Virus record (IMG/VR): IMGVR_UViG_3300006030_000030
Span: 1-62,866 of that record
Length of the DNA stretch: 62,866 nt
Source of the DNA: a virus
Reading direction: 5' to 3' (one strand)
A program made the position numbers and the translations under genes. Of the stretch, positions 9,794 to 43,245 are shown piece after piece. The notes beneath the pieces were generated by a model that searched no databases, was not told where the DNA came from, and was given only the letters and a program-made list of their open reading frames with translations. Positions within the stretch are counted from its first letter, which is position 1. Each line of letters begins with the position of its first letter.

Positions 9794-10897
9794 ATGAGCG
9801 GTATTCTTCAAGGGCTACTAGCCAGTTTTTCTGCTGGCGGCCCCGCACTTTATGCGTGGGGTAACAACACCTACGGTCAACTAGGAGTGATAGGTTATTT
9901 TTCCAGCCCTAAGCAAGTTGGAACCTTAACTACATGGTATCAAGTTTCTGCAGGCTCTCAGTTTACTTGCGCGGTCAAGTCTGACGGCACCATGTGGGCG
10001 TGGGGGAGAAGCGAATACGGCCAGCTAGGGTTGGGGAACACTACTAACTACTCCTCACCTAAGCAAATTGGTGCACTTACTACGTGGGCAAGAGTAAGTT
10101 GCGCCTTGGGAGGATGGCACGCAATTGCAATAAAAACAGACGGCACCATGTGGTCATGGGGTAGAAACGAATACGGACAACTTGGGACTGGAAACGTAAC
10201 ATATTATTCTAGCCCCGTACAAATTGGAGCGCTTACTACTTGGGCAAAAATAAGTTGTGGGGGTAATTTCTCAATCGCCATAAAAACTGACGGAACAGCA
10301 TGGTCGTGGGGTCAAGGCAACTCCGGGCAGCGGGGGGATAACACCACCACAGTTACAAGGAACAGCCCTATCCAAATCGGAGCATTAACAAACTGGCAAG
10401 ATATTTCGTGTGGGTATGACCACTCTATTGCGGTAAAAACAGACGGCACCATTTGGAGTTGGGGGTCTGGCAACTCAGGGGCGTTAGGGCTAGGAAACAT
10501 AAACCAGTACGCAAGCCCTAAACAAATAGGCGCGTTGACTGCATGGGCTACCCCGAGTTCTGGAGGCATACACTCCATTGCAATAAAGACTGACGGCACC
10601 CTTTGGAGTTGGGGGCGAAACAACGAAGGGCAATTAGGTAGGGGCAACACGACAAACTACTCTAGCCCAGTGCAAGTAGGTGCGCTAACTACGTGGCAGA
10701 AGGCTGCTTGCGGGGTGTTTTATACCACTGCTATTACATCCGGCAAGGCACTGTGGGTTTGGGGAGCCAACAACGCAGGCCAGCTTGGGTTAAATAACAC
10801 CACCTACTACTCGAGCCCGAAGCAAGTTGGCGCTCTTACTACATGGCTTCAAACGGCTGCGGGGAGGTATTTTACAATGGGCGTATTAAACTCTTAG
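9794..10897 (+). CDS. RCC1-like beta-propeller tail protein
   Basis: 367 residues. After about 17 residues it consists of seven repeats of about 50 residues with the RCC1/ATS1 signature: (L/M)W.WG.N.YGQLG.GN.T.YSSP.Q(I/V)GALTTW, then IAIKTDGT. Seven such repeats would close a seven-bladed propeller. RCC1 repeats in eukaryotes bind chromatin and small GTPases; in phage tail loci they are more likely a scaffold for binding surface glycans or proteins. There is no signal peptide. The DNA is AT-rich like the other propeller gene. It ends eight bases before the sulfotransferase fusion. Confidence 0.75.
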   Translation: MSGILQGLLASFSAGGPALYAWGNNTYGQLGVIGYFSSPKQVGTLTTWYQVSAGSQFTCAVKSDGTMWAWGRSEYGQLGLGNTTNYSSPKQIGALTTWARVSCALGGWHAIAIKTDGTMWSWGRNEYGQLGTGNVTYYSSPVQIGALTTWAKISCGGNFSIAIKTDGTAWSWGQGNSGQRGDNTTTVTRNSPIQIGALTNWQDISCGYDHSIAVKTDGTIWSWGSGNSGALGLGNINQYASPKQIGALTAWATPSSGGIHSIAIKTDGTLWSWGRNNEGQLGRGNTTNYSSPVQVGALTTWQKAACGVFYTTAITSGKALWVWGANNAGQLGLNNTTYYSSPKQVGALTTWLQTAAGRYFTMGVLNS

Positions 10898-10905
10898 TAG
10901 GTTAT

Positions 10906-12675
10906 ATGAACAAAACCCTTCACTTTCTCTCAGGTATCCCCCGTTCCGGCTCAACTGTGCTGGCGGCGATACTTAACCAGAACCCACAGACGCACGTTTC
11001 CACTACGTCAGGGCTGGTTCACGCGCTGGACGGGCTGGCAACGACATGGCACCAAGCCGGGCTGTTGAACGAGAACGACAAGGACCGCACCAAGCTCGCT
11101 CAGACCATGCGCGGGATGATTGATGCGTTCTATGGAGAGACCGACAAGCCTGTGGTAATTGACAAGGGTCGTGGGTGGCCGATCCCGGTCATCATGCAAG
11201 CAATGGGGCAGGTGCTGGGGCACAAGCCCAAGATTATCGCCACTGTACGCTCTGTACCTGACTGCATGGCGTCCTTCGTGCGGGTAGCCAAGCCTGAGAG
11301 CCTAGAAGAGTTCATGTACTCCGGGCAGCTTGCGGATCACCTGAAAGCCGCCTATATCTCACTGCAGCAGGGCTACGAGTACGACCCCGAGTGCTTCCTG
11401 TTCGTGGAGTACGAAGACCTTCTTGCCGACGCCAAGGCGCAGCTGGATCGGATTCACACGTTCCTCGACCTGCCCGCGTTCGACTATGACTTCAGCAACA
11501 TCGACGGCTCCTCGGTAAAAGAGGACGACGAGAACTTGCACGGCTACGAAGGCATGCACGACATCAAGCCCGTCCTGCAAAAACAGCACAGCGACAACCC
11601 CAAGGATTTATTGAAGCACCACTATTCAATGTTCTGCCAGCCTGAGTTCTGGCTTGATCGCCCGCGCACCGTCCCTGAGTTGCACGACCTTGATCTGCAA
11701 CTTGCCGCCAGCCGCATGGGCGACTTTGCCGAGGGCTGGAGACTGTGCCAGAAACTAGAAGCCGACGAGCCTGACAACCACCGAGCTGCCTACAACCGGG
11801 GCTGGTACATGCTCCGTCAGGGCAAGCTGCAGAAAGGCTATCAGCTGATGGATCGTGGTCGCATCGTGGGAGTGTTTGGCAACAAGCGCCCTGATGTACC
11901 GACCGCGCCTTGGGATGGCAAGAGCAAGGGCATCGTTATGCTCTACCTCGAAGGCGGTCTTGGCGATCAGATACATCAAGTCAGGTACGCCAAAGCAATC
12001 GCAGATCGTGGGTGCAAAGTCATTGTGTCCTGCACTGGGCCTCTTGCATCCCTGTTCGTTGGTGTAGAGGGCGTCTCCGCTGTCATCCAGCACGAAGCCT
12101 CGTTCGGTATCTACCACGACTACTTTGTTCAGGGCATGAGCGCCGTAGTGCCTCTGGGCTTTGAACTGAACGACTTGAGTGGTAAGCCTTACCTGACCAA
12201 GCCCAAAGTAATCAGGGGCCGCAAGAAACGCATAGGGCTGCGCTGGCAGGGGCAGATGGCGTTCGAGAACGAGCACCAGAAGAAGTTTCCCTATGACCTG
12301 ATGTTTGATGCCGTGAAGGACGCAGATGCGGAGTTCATTTCCCTGCAACGTGATGAGGGTGCAGACTTCTGCCCGTCATGGGTGAAGCAGGTTCCGCTGA
12401 ATAGCTGGGAAGATACCCGCGCTGCTGCGGCATCGTGTGATTTGGTGATCTCTGCGTGTACTTCGGTGAGCCACTTGTCGGCTGCGATGGGCGTGGAGAC
12501 GTGGGTCGTGACTCCGGTGATGCCGTACTTCCTGTACGCCCTTGAAGGAGAGACCTGCCCCTACTACGACACCATGAAGCTCATGCGGCAAGAAGTGTTC
12601 GGTGACTGGACGGCTCCGTTTGAGCGCATTAAAGAACGTCTTAGCGAGAAGCAAGTATTGAGGAGGGTAAAATGA
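10906..12675 (+). CDS. Sulfotransferase-TPR-glycosyltransferase fusion
   Basis: 589 residues from ATG 10906; an upstream in-frame ATG (10843) would overlap the RCC1 gene by 55 bases and precede the fold. Residues 5-275: PAPS-dependent sulfotransferase, with 5'-phosphosulfate loop PRSGST (12-17) and 3'-phosphate site Arg115/Ser123, spaced eight as in known enzymes. Residues about 285-345: two TPR-like helical hairpins (GDFAEGWRLCQKLEADEP, AAYNRGWYMLRQGKLQKGY). Residues about 350-589: GT-B-like domain resembling TPR-linked or family 9 glycosyltransferases (YLEGGLGDQIHQVRYAKAI, CDLVISACTSVSHLSAAMG). Likely soluble. Overlaps the next gene by four bases and lies two genes upstream of an APS kinase that could supply PAPS. 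The acceptor is unknown: virion protein, glycan on it, or host surface. Confidence 0.8.
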   Translation: MNKTLHFLSGIPRSGSTVLAAILNQNPQTHVSTTSGLVHALDGLATTWHQAGLLNENDKDRTKLAQTMRGMIDAFYGETDKPVVIDKGRGWPIPVIMQAMGQVLGHKPKIIATVRSVPDCMASFVRVAKPESLEEFMYSGQLADHLKAAYISLQQGYEYDPECFLFVEYEDLLADAKAQLDRIHTFLDLPAFDYDFSNIDGSSVKEDDENLHGYEGMHDIKPVLQKQHSDNPKDLLKHHYSMFCQPEFWLDRPRTVPELHDLDLQLAASRMGDFAEGWRLCQKLEADEPDNHRAAYNRGWYMLRQGKLQKGYQLMDRGRIVGVFGNKRPDVPTAPWDGKSKGIVMLYLEGGLGDQIHQVRYAKAIADRGCKVIVSCTGPLASLFVGVEGVSAVIQHEASFGIYHDYFVQGMSAVVPLGFELNDLSGKPYLTKPKVIRGRKKRIGLRWQGQMAFENEHQKKFPYDLMFDAVKDADAEFISLQRDEGADFCPSWVKQVPLNSWEDTRAAAASCDLVISACTSVSHLSAAMGVETWVVTPVMPYFLYALEGETCPYYDTMKLMRQEVFGDWTAPFERIKERLSEKQVLRRVK

Positions 12676-13073
12676 GTAATTTATTTGTCAAAATAGCAAA
12701 CAATGAAGTAACTCAGGTCTGGGACACGCAGCCGCCTGCCGGTGAGTCTGGCTGGAAGTCTGCCATTGAAGTTCGCCCTGTTCTGACCAGCCGTCAGCAG
12801 TACACTGAACACAGCTTTGATCTGACCAAAGACCCCGTAGAGATTGTCTGGGGCGTGCGTGAGATCAGCGTCGATGAGCGCAAGGGCCAGTATGCCTCAC
12901 GCTACAAAACAGCCTTCCAGCAGGTTGTAAACGACGAGATGCGTAAAGAGGTAGACGAGTTCCCCACTACCCAGTACGACGCTGCCGTGGTTGACGCTGC
13001 CCGCGTAGAGTTTGAAACCAAGACAACTGCACTCGCTGCAATCACCACGCACGAAGAACTAGACGCGCTGTGA
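12672..13073 (+). CDS. Tail-fibre-associated chaperone-like protein
   Basis: 133 residues. The N-terminal half is beta-rich (FVKIANNEVTQVWDT, VEIVWGVREISVDERK) and the C-terminal half a long charged helix (ASRYKTAFQQVVNDEMRKEVDEF, DAARVEFETKTTALAAITTHEEL). This resembles phage fibre-assembly or fibre-tip accessory proteins, but I do not recognise a named family with certainty. It overlaps the sulfotransferase stop (ATGA) and the APS kinase start (GTGA), so all three are made from one message. Confidence 0.55.
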   Translation: MSNLFVKIANNEVTQVWDTQPPAGESGWKSAIEVRPVLTSRQQYTEHSFDLTKDPVEIVWGVREISVDERKGQYASRYKTAFQQVVNDEMRKEVDEFPTTQYDAAVVDAARVEFETKTTALAAITTHEELDAL

Positions 13074-13540
13074 AAATACTAATCATGGGCCTGCCGGGTA
13101 GCGGTAAAACTACTCTTGCAAGAGTGCTGGCAGAGCGCCTGCGCTGTACCCATTTCAATGCCGACGACATTCGTGAGAACATCAACAAAGACCTTGGTTT
13201 TAGTCCTGAAGACAGAATTGAGCAGGCTCGCAGGATGGGGCATCTTTGTAACCTGTCCTCCCGCTGGGGCGAGGCGGTGATAGCAGATTTTGTCTGCCCG
13301 ACAGAAGAAACTCGGGCGGCGTTTGATGCTGACTTCGTGGTCTGGATGGATACAATTTCCTCCAGCCGATACAAGGATACCAACTCAATCTTCGTTCCAC
13401 CGAAGCGATACGATTACCGGATTATCAATTTCAGCAAGCCGACGGTTGACCACGCCAAGGAGATACACGCCAAGGCGTTCAAAAGCCGGTTAACAGTCGT
13501 AGAAATGCCAGTAGAGGTGATGACCCGTGAACATAGATGA
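13070..13540 (+). CDS. cysC: Adenylylsulfate (APS) kinase
   Basis: 156 residues. Phosphorylates APS to PAPS, the universal sulfate donor. Walker A GLPGSGKTT (7-15), then FNADDIRENINKDLGFSPEDRIEQARRMGHL, which corresponds to the APS-kinase signature with the DG(D/N).R loop changed to NADDIR; a further segment VIADFVCPTEETRAAF matches the family's ITAFISP...R region. The GTG start overlaps the preceding stop (GTGA); the ATG at 13085 would remove the first beta strand. The family is usually about 170-200 residues, so this is a short form. It needs APS from host ATP sulfurylase. Together with the upstream sulfotransferase it suggests a dedicated sulfation pathway. Confidence 0.85.
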   Translation: MKILIMGLPGSGKTTLARVLAERLRCTHFNADDIRENINKDLGFSPEDRIEQARRMGHLCNLSSRWGEAVIADFVCPTEETRAAFDADFVVWMDTISSSRYKDTNSIFVPPKRYDYRIINFSKPTVDHAKEIHAKAFKSRLTVVEMPVEVMTREHR

Positions 13541-40446: not shown

Positions 40447-40615
40447 AGAAGACAAGAAGCTGTTGGCAGGCAAGAGCGCCAGTTACATCATCGGCTGGAA
40501 CAAGGTCAAACACAGAGGAGACAAGCATGACACTGCAAGAAATACTGAATCCGTGGAAGGCACTGCGCCGCGCAAAGCTCGAAATCGAAACCCTGCGAAG
40601 GGAGAGGGGATATGA
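40412..40615 (+). CDS. 67-residue basic protein
   Basis: 67 residues from ATG 40412, with AGGAGG nine bases upstream. Basic, no clear fold (KKLLAGKSASYIIGWNKVKHRGDK). It overlaps the gene before by 35 bases and the methyltransferase start by four. Could be real or a spurious overlap; the strong ribosome site favours real. Confidence 0.4.
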   Translation: MLSNRPSSVPDKEDKKLLAGKSASYIIGWNKVKHRGDKHDTARNTESVEGTAPRKARNRNPAKGEGI

Positions 40616-40625
40616 GATACGGTAG
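40527..40625 (+). CDS. 32-residue helical peptide ahead of the methyltransferase
   Basis: 32 residues from ATG 40527 with GAGGAGACAAGC upstream. LQEILNPWKALRRAKLEIETLRRERG is a single amphipathic coiled-coil-like helix of a type I recall from small phage ORFs. It overlaps the 67-residue ORF in another frame and the methyltransferase by 14 bases. Confidence 0.35.
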   Translation: MTLQEILNPWKALRRAKLEIETLRRERGYEIR

Positions 40626-41988
40626 TGTTTGTAGTGGCATTGAGGCAGCAAGTGTGGCGTGGCACCCGCTTGGGTGGGAGGCCGCGTGGCTGGCTGAAAT
40701 TGAACCGTTTCCCTCAGCGGTATTAGGTCATCATTATCCAAGCGTACCCAACTACGGAGACATGACCGCCTTGGCTGACAGAGTCAATAATCTGGAGATT
40801 GAAGCTCCGGATGTGCTGGTCGGCGGTACGCCATGCCAAGCGTTTTCCGTCGCTGGGCTGCGTCAGTCACTGGATGACGATAGGGGACAACTAACAATCA
40901 AGTTTTTGGAGCTTGCTGATGCAATTGACACTGTTCGCAGAAATAGAGGAGAGCCAGAGTGCATTATCGTCTGGGAAAACGTACCCGGCGTCCTATCCAC
41001 AAAAGACAACGCCCTCGGATGCTTTTTGGCAGAGCTTGCCGGAGAAAGTGAGCCGCTGCAGCCGGCAGGGAAAAGATGGTCGGACGCTGGTTGTGTGTAT
41101 GGATCCAAAAGGGCAATCGCGTGGCGAGTCCTCGATGCCCAATATTTCGGCTTGGCCCAACGACGCCGCCGCGTGTTCGTTGTCGCAAGTGCTCGAAACG
41201 GGTTCGATCCCGCAGCGGTTCTTTTTGAGTTCGAAGGCGTGCGCCGGGATACTGCGCCGAGCAGGGAATCGGGGAAAGCAGTTGCCCCCACAATTGCAGG
41301 ATGCGCTAACGGCGGTGGCCTTGGCACCGACTTCGACTGCGATGGGGGAGTGATTCAGCAGTCGATTACTTTTGAGCCGGGATTATTAAAAAGGGAAGGG
41401 ACTCATTTTTATCATGAGCACACGGGGACGATAAGAAGCGATCCCGGTGACAACGCAATGGCCGTTGCATCGGTGGTCTTCCACGAGTCACTGCAAAGCG
41501 CCAGCACAGAAAACCTGTCGCCAGCCTTGGGCGCGATGAATCCAACGGCGGTGTTGCAGCCTGTCTGCGTTACCGGCGACCGCACCCACGCGCTCAAAGC
41601 TGAAGGCTTCGACGGCAGCGAGGACGGCACTGGCAGAGGCCATCCCATCATTGCTTTCCCCGCAAACCTGTCAGCCACACAACACGCCAGCGCCGAAAAC
41701 ATTGCGCCAGCGATGGGGGCGAAGAATCCGACGGCGGTGGCAATGCAGGCTGGGAAGCAGCACGGTGTCGGTACCGCCATGCAAGTCCGCCGCCTCACGC
41801 CCGTGGAGTGCGAACGCCTGCAAGGCTTCCCCGACAACTACACCGCCATCCCGTGGCGCAAGAAACCCGCAGACGAATGCTCGGACGGCTCGCGATACAA
41901 GGCGTTGGGAAATTCAATGGCCGTTCCGGTGATGGCGTGGATTGGCAGTCGTATTGATCAAGAAACCAGACTGCGAGAGACGAAATGA
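40612..41988 (+). CDS. C5-cytosine DNA methyltransferase
   Basis: 458 residues. Motif I SGIEAASVAW, motif IV GGTPCQAFSVAG with the catalytic Cys, motif VI WENVPGV, motif VIII LAQRRRRVFVVAS, motif IX RRLTPVECERLQGFPDNYT and motif X YKALGNSMAVPV are all present. The region between VIII and IX (residues about 215-400) is a large target-recognition part with an internal near-duplication (FHESLQSASTENLSPAL and ANLSATQHASAENIAPAM). No restriction endonuclease partner is adjacent, so it is probably an orphan enzyme that protects phage DNA or alters host methylation. Confidence 0.92.
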   Translation: MRYGSVCSGIEAASVAWHPLGWEAAWLAEIEPFPSAVLGHHYPSVPNYGDMTALADRVNNLEIEAPDVLVGGTPCQAFSVAGLRQSLDDDRGQLTIKFLELADAIDTVRRNRGEPECIIVWENVPGVLSTKDNALGCFLAELAGESEPLQPAGKRWSDAGCVYGSKRAIAWRVLDAQYFGLAQRRRRVFVVASARNGFDPAAVLFEFEGVRRDTAPSRESGKAVAPTIAGCANGGGLGTDFDCDGGVIQQSITFEPGLLKREGTHFYHEHTGTIRSDPGDNAMAVASVVFHESLQSASTENLSPALGAMNPTAVLQPVCVTGDRTHALKAEGFDGSEDGTGRGHPIIAFPANLSATQHASAENIAPAMGAKNPTAVAMQAGKQHGVGTAMQVRRLTPVECERLQGFPDNYTAIPWRKKPADECSDGSRYKALGNSMAVPVMAWIGSRIDQETRLRETK

Positions 41989-42134
41989 AAAAACGCATTC
42001 ACGTCAATCAACATCACATCCGCGCCAATGCCAAGGGCGCCCAGCTGCCCGTGCTCACGGTCAAGACCTACAAGGGCAACACCCTGTGCAATAGTGTCGA
42101 GGTCCGCGGCCCGACGCAGATAATGCGCACATGA
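41985..42134 (+). pseudogene. 5' fragment of a small conserved phage gene, split by insertion
   Basis: 49 residues, ATGA-coupled to the methyltransferase. MKKRIHVNQHHIRANAKG, LPVLTVKTYKGNT and VEVRGP are the N-terminal two thirds of a small protein family of phages and enterobacteria that normally continues with a CKVVY...LSCGA.VWIET part. That missing part lies about 1.2 kb downstream at 43311. A direct repeat GGCCCGA marks the junction here (42108-42114). The truncated ORF ends in six unrelated codons. Confidence 0.7.
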
Positions 42135-42168
42135 TGACAATGAATCTACAGACTATGAGTAGCAGCCC

Positions 42169-43245
42169 ATGTTGATGAAAGTAAAAACCGCGCCCGCTTA
42201 TTACACCGCCAAGGGTGGTGCATACATAGGGGACTCGATAGAGCTTCTAAGTGAGCTGCCAGATGAAAGTGTCAATCTGGTTATCACAAGCCCACCGTTT
42301 GCTCTGCAGCGCCAGAAGGAGTATGGCAACCTGGATCAACATGCATATATCGATTGGTTTGTAGAATTTGCCCGAATTGTTCATAGAAAACTCCGAAAAG
42401 ATGGGAGCTTCGTTGTCGATTTCGGGGGCGCTTATATGAAAGGTGTCCCGGTGCGTAGTCTCTATAACTTTCGTGTGCTAATTCGATTGGTTGATGAGCT
42501 GGGGTATTTTCTTGCTGAAGATTTTTATTGGTTCAATCCTTCTAAGCTACCTAGTCCGATTGAGTGGGTGAATAAGAGAAAGCTTCGAGTAAAGGATTCA
42601 ATTAATACGGTGTGGTGGTTCAGCAAAACCGAATGGCCGAAATCTGACATCACTAAAGTGCTCGCACCATATAGTGAACGAATGAAGAAGCTAATCGAAG
42701 ACCCTGATAAATTCTATACGCCAAAAGTTCGTCCATCAGGGCACGATATTGGCAAAGGATTCGCCAAAGATAATGGTGGAGCTATTCCCCCAAACTTACT
42801 TCAAATATCAAATTCCGAATCCAACGGACTATATCTTTCCGGATGTAAGGCAGTAGGAGTAAAAGGACATCCAGCCAGATTTCCCGCAAAGCTTCCTGAG
42901 TTTTTTATACGAATGTTGACTGAGCCAAATGATCTTGTTGTAGACATTTTTGGTGGCTCCAATACTACGGGGCAAGTAGCAGAACAAGAAGGTCGCCGAT
43001 GGATGTCTTTCGAAATGTCGCCCGAATATGTGGCAGCTTCGTCCTTTCGACTTTTGGATAAAAATACCCCTGTCGACGTAATGACTTTTATTTACGAAAA
43101 AGTTCTCGCCGGTGAATCGATTAATATCGATGAGTTCGTTCGCCAGTCACGTCTAGATTTGCGCGAGGAATCTGCTCCTAACAAACCAAGCAACTTCGTG
43201 CGCAAAAAGCGCGCACCGGACGCGGCAAGCCGCGCCGGTTCTTAG
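42169..43245 (+). CDS. N4-cytosine/N6-adenine DNA methyltransferase, recently inserted
   Basis: 358 residues (ATG 42169; ATG 42175 also possible). Beta-class order: catalytic motif IV TSPPF comes first (about residue 41), AdoMet motif I DIFGGSNTTGQ near residue 265. TSPPF/Y is usual for N4-cytosine enzymes, so m4C is the better guess. The middle third is a likely target-recognition region. Base composition is clearly more AT-rich than either flank and codon use differs, which with the split gene around it indicates recent transfer. No endonuclease partner is seen. Confidence 0.85.
   Translation: MLMKVKTAPAYYTAKGGAYIGDSIELLSELPDESVNLVITSPPFALQRQKEYGNLDQHAYIDWFVEFARIVHRKLRKDGSFVVDFGGAYMKGVPVRSLYNFRVLIRLVDELGYFLAEDFYWFNPSKLPSPIEWVNKRKLRVKDSINTVWWFSKTEWPKSDITKVLAPYSERMKKLIEDPDKFYTPKVRPSGHDIGKGFAKDNGGAIPPNLLQISNSESNGLYLSGCKAVGVKGHPARFPAKLPEFFIRMLTEPNDLVVDIFGGSNTTGQVAEQEGRRWMSFEMSPEYVAASSFRLLDKNTPVDVMTFIYEKVLAGESINIDEFVRQSRLDLREESAPNKPSNFVRKKRAPDAASRAGS

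Follow-up and report, generated by a model that had tools for sequence, protein, structure and literature searches.

Several described systems come close to parts of the locus presented here. Among bacteria, the bacterial autotransporter heptosyltransferases (BAHT; TibC/AAH) heptosylate repeat adhesins (PMC8498110). On the viral side, cysC counts among the reported auxiliary metabolic genes for assimilatory sulfate reduction (Kieft et al., as cited in PMC12713726), and one statement in PMC10829341 mentions sulfotransferase-based nucleotide modification in phages; in the literature, we found no description of phage virion sulfation or of a phage sulfation module. Here we analyse a plus-strand cassette (positions 9794-13540) of IMG/VR record IMGVR_UViG_3300006030_000030, taken at its whole length of 62,866 bases and called the window below. 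The cassette encodes an RCC1-repeat protein, a fusion of a sulfotransferase (ST), a TPR-like linker and a GT9-like glycosyltransferase (GT), a small conserved protein, and a kinase resembling those that convert adenosine 5'-phosphosulfate (APS) to 3'-phosphoadenosine 5'-phosphosulfate (PAPS). We tentatively read it as a virion-decoration module in which donors would be made and an RCC1 tail adhesin given a sulfated heptose, a reading that we hold at somewhat short of even.

The fusion (589 aa, 10906..12675), which has at least 405 relatives in IMG/VR, begins with the ST domain (residues 1-255, 10906..11670). A Pfam scan assigns this domain to Sulfotransfer_3 (PF13469; 8e-17, 62.6 bits against a gathering cut-off of 27), with a further 34.6 bits for PF00685. 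The retention of PAPS-binding motifs, proposed in an earlier sequence-only reading of this DNA, is borne out by 24 relatives that share about 80% overall identity: in the 5'-phosphosulfate loop P12-R-S-G-S-T17 (10939..10956), R13-T17 are invariant and P12 nearly so, and both members of the 3'-phosphate binding pair R115...S123 (11248..11274) are invariant. The spacing of eight between Arg and Ser is shared by TPST2 and by a stand-alone phage ST (L161). These motifs make it very probable that the ST half uses PAPS. By family profile, the nearest solved structures are human TPST2 and TPST1 (4e-5); TPSTs also top the Foldseek list of the AlphaFold2 (AF2) model of the fusion, although that model is of low confidence (pLDDT 54; 24 near-identical rows) and gives a hint only. 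The window ST thus resembles sulfotransferase family 3 and the TPSTs in its 5' and 3' PAPS motifs and, by profile, in its fold, but differs in being joined to a TPR and a GT9-like domain and in having Thr/Ser where the TPST catalytic Glu aligns (a remote alignment of low identity). In TPST2 this Glu is E99. Of the acceptors first proposed, a glycan or tyrosine, tyrosine is thus a weak candidate, with the TPSTs as nearest solved structures in its favour and the Thr/Ser alignment against it, and we did not adopt tyrosine sulfation.

Behind the ST domain, the TPR-like linker (about residues 266-318, 11701..11859) is matched weakly (TPR_16, E 0.015). The C-terminal domain (about residues 334-589, 11905..12672) gave no direct match to the GT9 profile PF01075 in the Pfam scan of the window protein; it is 25% identical over 315 columns (8e-20) to a bacterial TPR-GT9 protein (L082:6082-7995) that itself matches PF01075, and by this homology the domain is GT9-like, with the heptosyltransferase fold. 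The proposed ST-TPR-GT architecture therefore stands for the ST by Pfam and for the GT by way of this homologue, with the TPR part weak; the idea of a bifunctional enzyme is upheld as far as the domains and PAPS motifs go, and the GT9 assignment had been missed. GT9 enzymes use ADP-heptose as their donor, and HldE and HldD make it. We counted cassettes among loci fetched by the fusion query only, non-redundant at 97% and with 4.5 kb of downstream sequence (n = 31); since such a query tends to bring in close relatives of the window, the fractions hold for that neighbourhood and not for all relatives. HldE-C, HldE-N and HldD, so named by NCBIfam at 7e-48, 3e-32 and 8e-58 but each under its equivalog cut-off, were present in seven of the 31 cassettes, all seven of which also carry the kinase. 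On four phage contigs (L013:8441-10608, L162, L234 and L040), tail genes are adjoined by a run of four genes, for HldE-C, a cupin, HldE-N and HldD; in L040 the kinase is reduced to a 24-residue remnant match. Compared with GT9 heptosyltransferases (PF01075), the likeness lies in the domain itself and in the ADP-heptose genes among relatives, whereas the window enzyme differs in its DTG motif, where Asp has become Cys, in its fusion to a sulfotransferase and in being carried by a phage. The GT half is likely to be an active sugar transferase. Heptose is the likely sugar, if by a modest measure, given a GT9-like domain and relatives with genes for ADP-heptose.

The kinase (156 aa, GTG start, 13070..13540) is predicted to make PAPS. 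It matches APS_kinase (PF01583) with 62 bits (8e-17), but over residues 3-84 only; its AF2 model reaches a pLDDT of 88, and every one of the top 50 PDB matches in Foldseek is either an APS kinase or a bifunctional enzyme with such a domain. Its Walker A motif, GLPGSGKT, is intact, as had been noted. In CysC of M. tuberculosis, K456 of the P-loop, D480, R483, F492 and R497 touch ATP or APS, and R559, K562 and F576 are lid residues (PMC4373884). The equivalents of the first five, K13, D32, R35, F44 and R49, are all present, also in comparison with E. coli CysC, and are kept even in distant members of the family. The earlier label of APS kinase is thus sustained for fold and APS-contact residues but not for CysC identity: the protein scores 56.7 bits against the cut-off of 138.7 of the apsK equivalog (TIGR00455) and lacks the CysC lid, and its family forms a clade separate from CysC (SH-aLRT 100), so that tree and scores rule out a true CysC. 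Set beside the APS kinase domain of CysC and PAPS synthetases (PF01583, TIGR00455), it shares the P-loop kinase fold, Walker A and the Asp/Arg/Phe/Arg contacts to APS, and differs in being shorter, in forming its own clade and in its lid. Since this is a sister family of CysC without the CysC lid, phosphorylation of APS is likely, not established; going by the model and the kept residues, we find it reasonably probable that the kinase makes PAPS. The viral cysC genes, as PMC12713726 cites them, are alike in that a phage gene annotates as adenylylsulfate kinase; the window gene belongs to a non-CysC family, which may set it apart, and is coupled to transferases.

The genomic linkage of kinase and sulfotransferase is recurrent. 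In the 31 cassettes, the kinase is present in 22, as eight of a DLGF type and 14 of a DWDF type, 12 of them alone and ten fused to a nucleotidyltransferase. These types are two distant clades that occupy the same cassette position, and the NKDLGF.PEDR motif, put forward as a signature of the kinase, is therefore not diagnostic, DWDFS..GR relatives filling the same slot. Neither does it mark linkage to an ST, as 17 of 31 cassette kinases were of the DWDF type in a pooled set that included kinase and heptose queries (kinase in 31/41) and that the fusion-only counts supersede. Beyond the fusion, eight phage loci (L161, L164-L166, L170, L171, L174 and L175) have a kinase overlapping by 4 bp the stop of a stand-alone ST that is 28% identical to the ST of the fusion. 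The pairing recurs in bacteria, where SAR11, SAR86 and Rhizobiales-type lineages commonly carry the family: in Chelatococcus, Sideroxydans and Bradyrhizobium the kinase lies at most 232 bp from an ST. A Sideroxydans metagenome-assembled genome (L080:3696-16364) has the order adhesin-kinase-ST-adhesin, the adhesins being very large, TpsA-type proteins with ESPR/TPS/YDG domains and near-identical N-termini. Bradyrhizobium LHD-71 (L096) has a kinase fusion, an ST and an autotransporter-like protein with PATR repeats; in other Bradyrhizobium, the kinase fusion is immediately preceded by one or two TPR-STs (L091-L093, L102), a TPR-GT9 protein precedes the kinase fusion and a TPR-ST follows it (L082), or a type 1 secretion pair is followed by kinase fusion and ST (L104). 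In a tree of 136 kinases, which includes near-copies and is unevenly sampled, 32 are linked to an ST, either in the cassette or no more than 2.5 kb away, with at least seven gains or losses of this linkage. Finally, among 197 Pelagibacteraceae genomes an ST was found in 53 of the 91 with the kinase vs 23 of the 106 without it (odds ratio 5, Fisher 2e-7, uncorrected for kinship and completeness).

Gene order, domains, motifs, kinase fold and linkage are established by sequence or model, and the layout of the cassette adds to them. The window belongs to a tailed phage and encodes an SU10-type adaptor, a primase, a UvrD-type helicase and a DNA polymerase. Downstream of the fibre genes, the plus strand encodes the RCC1 protein, the fusion, the small protein, the kinase, a DUF6127 protein, a pair of small proteins and a lysozyme (Phage_lysozyme), so the module does lie between fibre and lysis genes. 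Translational coupling, also part of the first account, is seen in 4-bp start/stop overlaps, ATGA at 12672-12675 between fusion and small gene and GTGA at 13070-13073 between small gene and kinase, and the reading frames of fusion and kinase are as given there. An in-frame ATG upstream of the fusion at 10843 falls within the RCC1 gene; relatives begin at the Met at 10906, and the RCC1 stop (10895-10897) ends 8 bp ahead of this ATG. The small protein (133 aa, 12672..13073), which has a 4-bp overlap on each side and is found in 31 of 31 cassettes, has no Pfam or NCBIfam match above cut-off, and the label 'chaperone-like' finds no backing in these databases. A survey of related phages for co-occurrence, suggested at the outset, thus yielded a constant small gene and a frequent kinase beside the fusion. 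That the genes are accidental passengers (morons) with no joint role might be argued from the kinase and heptose genes, which come and go; because of the conservation this was already unlikely, and at least 405 fusion relatives, the constant RCC1 and small genes, the overlaps and a kinase slot filled independently from two clades leave it with very little probability.

The constant partner that the sequence-only reading had missed, along with the ADP-heptose genes of relatives, is the RCC1-repeat protein itself, a predicted seven-bladed propeller of 367 aa (9794..10897; Pfam RCC1 8.7e-83 in seven stretches). In all 40 non-redundant relatives that were fetched by the fusion alone and have both flanks, the fusion has an RCC1 gene at most 4 kb away. 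Relatives have up to four RCC1 paralogues on both sides of the fusion, most commonly two upstream and one or two downstream; there is a single one in the window. The fusion enzyme has a median identity to the window of 79% vs 53% for the RCC1 partner, and such faster divergence of RCC1 would be expected were a single conserved enzyme to act on adhesins that vary. As an analogy only, the arrangement may be likened to the BAHT enzymes, whose AIDA-I/TibA systems likewise have a repeat-rich, adhesin-like partner gene; the partner here is an RCC1 protein and not an autotransporter. We consider it an even call that the acceptor is a virion protein, with RCC1 the first candidate. With unchanged chemistry, the fusion could instead alter the host envelope (lipopolysaccharide core or capsule) during infection and so keep progeny or competitors from re-adsorbing, in the manner of seroconverting phages. 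GT9 enzymes usually act on the lipopolysaccharide core and STs decorate capsules, and the ADP-heptose genes in relatives and a lipopolysaccharide-type GT25 gene (PF01755) in two cassettes (L007, L234) would fit such a target; the location in a late tail/lysis block, the strict pairing with up to four RCC1 genes and the bacterial kinase-ST pairs that adjoin secreted adhesins speak against it, and we rate it as rather unlikely. The GT25 gene, where present, is inserted upstream of the kinase (L007:4305-4997, L234:6733-7422).

From these observations we infer the substrate of the kinase, the sugar, the acceptor, the order of reactions and the benefit of virion decoration. Host-made APS would be phosphorylated at its 3' position by the kinase to give PAPS, and kinase-nucleotidyltransferase fusions would perhaps be more independent in making PAPS. 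ADP-glycero-manno-heptose, the most likely nucleotide sugar, would come from the host or from the relatives' own HldE/HldD. The fusion would accept PAPS in its ST half and the nucleotide sugar in its GT9-like half and transfer both groups; the outcome would be either a heptose that is itself sulfated afterwards or two separate marks. The acceptor would be the co-encoded RCC1-repeat tail protein, and the modification could affect its stability or receptor binding. The central claim of the sequence-only reading, that the kinase feeds the ST and the GT builds or extends a glycan, is a good hypothesis that now has firmer support, save that the kinase is not a CysC.

A number of observations weigh against this mechanism. 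The kinase is missing from nine of the 31 cassettes, which makes it dispensable, and the cassette of the window itself has no heptose genes. We found no member of the PAPS_reduct (CysD/CysH) or ATP-sulfurylase families in the window, and discarded the idea of a sulfate-activation pathway of the phage's own. The place of the RCC1 proteins in the virion is presumed. In the tree, 104 of the 136 kinases have no detected ST nearby, and some adjoin NADAR and methyltransferase genes. The alignment has a gap at the CysC lid (KGLYKKARAG..FTG, which includes the Arg, Lys and Phe of the lid), and the family's own conserved motif DTN.F.PP.YD.R takes its place. In the GT half, Asp354 of GLGD is retained, but all 24 relatives have Cys518 (codon 12457-12459) where GT9 enzymes have the Asp of DTG, so that donor or activity may differ. 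That substitution also lends something to the idea that both halves have lost catalysis and now act on RCC1 proteins as factors for binding or assembly, as does the fact that the 589-aa protein is still in one piece beside its partner; since PAPS motifs are invariant at the high overall identity noted above and the supply kinase and genes for ADP-heptose are maintained alongside, we consider this loss of catalysis improbable.

The replaced lid and the separate clade bear more directly on whether the kinase has a role in PAPS synthesis at all. It could act on another nucleotide-like or sugar substrate and, together with a nucleotidyltransferase, make an unusual activated donor. HldE is itself a kinase joined to a nucleotidyltransferase, and the CDP-phosphoramidate kinase of Campylobacter is a CysC homologue. 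A bona fide CysC is also present in four of the seven cellular genomes carrying the family (Chelatococcus and three Bradyrhizobium), where it scores 190-236 bits and the family member 57-64 bits; no such CysC turned up in the other three, from Pelagibacter, SAR86 and Sideroxydans. Moreover, a nucleotidyltransferase is fused or adjacent in 179 open reading frames (ORFs) and fused in ten of the 22 cassette kinases, in L013 and L162 there is a direct overlap of kinase and HldE-C, and Casjensviridae have the kinase without an ST. On the other hand, the adenine-stacking Phe and both phosphosulfate Arg are retained in the most distant members and ST linkage is repeated across the tree, for which reasons a role apart from PAPS seems doubtful to us, though less so than an envelope target.

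The nucleotidyltransferase, which many kinases run into or precede, is NMNAT-like: its PDB neighbours are NMNAT, and GR.QP.H.GH, YGR.VGY (in 175 of the 179 ORFs) and ISAT.IR are constant. Examples include L079:7992-8762, L096, L104, L108, L195 and L018:7108-7464, and such pairs are frequent in SAR11 and Rhizobiales; we found no characterised member of this kinase-nucleotidyltransferase family. A speculative and, in our judgement, unlikely extension would make the nucleotidyltransferase a new, small type of ATP sulfurylase and the fusion a minimal PAPS synthetase. Donors for both halves of one bifunctional transferase would then be self-supplied, PAPS by the kinase or kinase-nucleotidyltransferase and ADP-heptose by HldE/HldD, and phages would be semi-autonomous for sulfated heptose on tail adhesins; under the same unlikely reading, the minimal synthetase would be widespread in Alphaproteobacteria and SAR11, partly beside sulfotransferases and secreted adhesins. 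In Casjensviridae isolates (L072, L074, L075 and L076) a kinase-nucleotidyltransferase fusion overlaps a gene annotated as NADAR in Bhz60 and lies near DNA methyltransferase and topoisomerase genes, which may reflect a further function of the family, perhaps in the metabolism of nucleotides or NAD. The window has cytosine-C5 and N6/N4 DNA methyltransferase genes of its own at 40612-43245. When the region was compared with 50,697 phage records by megablast, nothing matched, and phage isolates have only distant homologues of the ST half, the GT half or the kinase.

If the virion-decoration reading is true, phages would place a charged modification on their tail proteins, which would be relevant to host range, and would bring along the synthesis of both donors that one bifunctional transferase needs. 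Some viral genes annotated as cysC may have been misread as belonging to assimilatory sulfate reduction. The locus also points to an uncharacterised kinase-nucleotidyltransferase family that is common in SAR11 and Bradyrhizobium-type bacteria.
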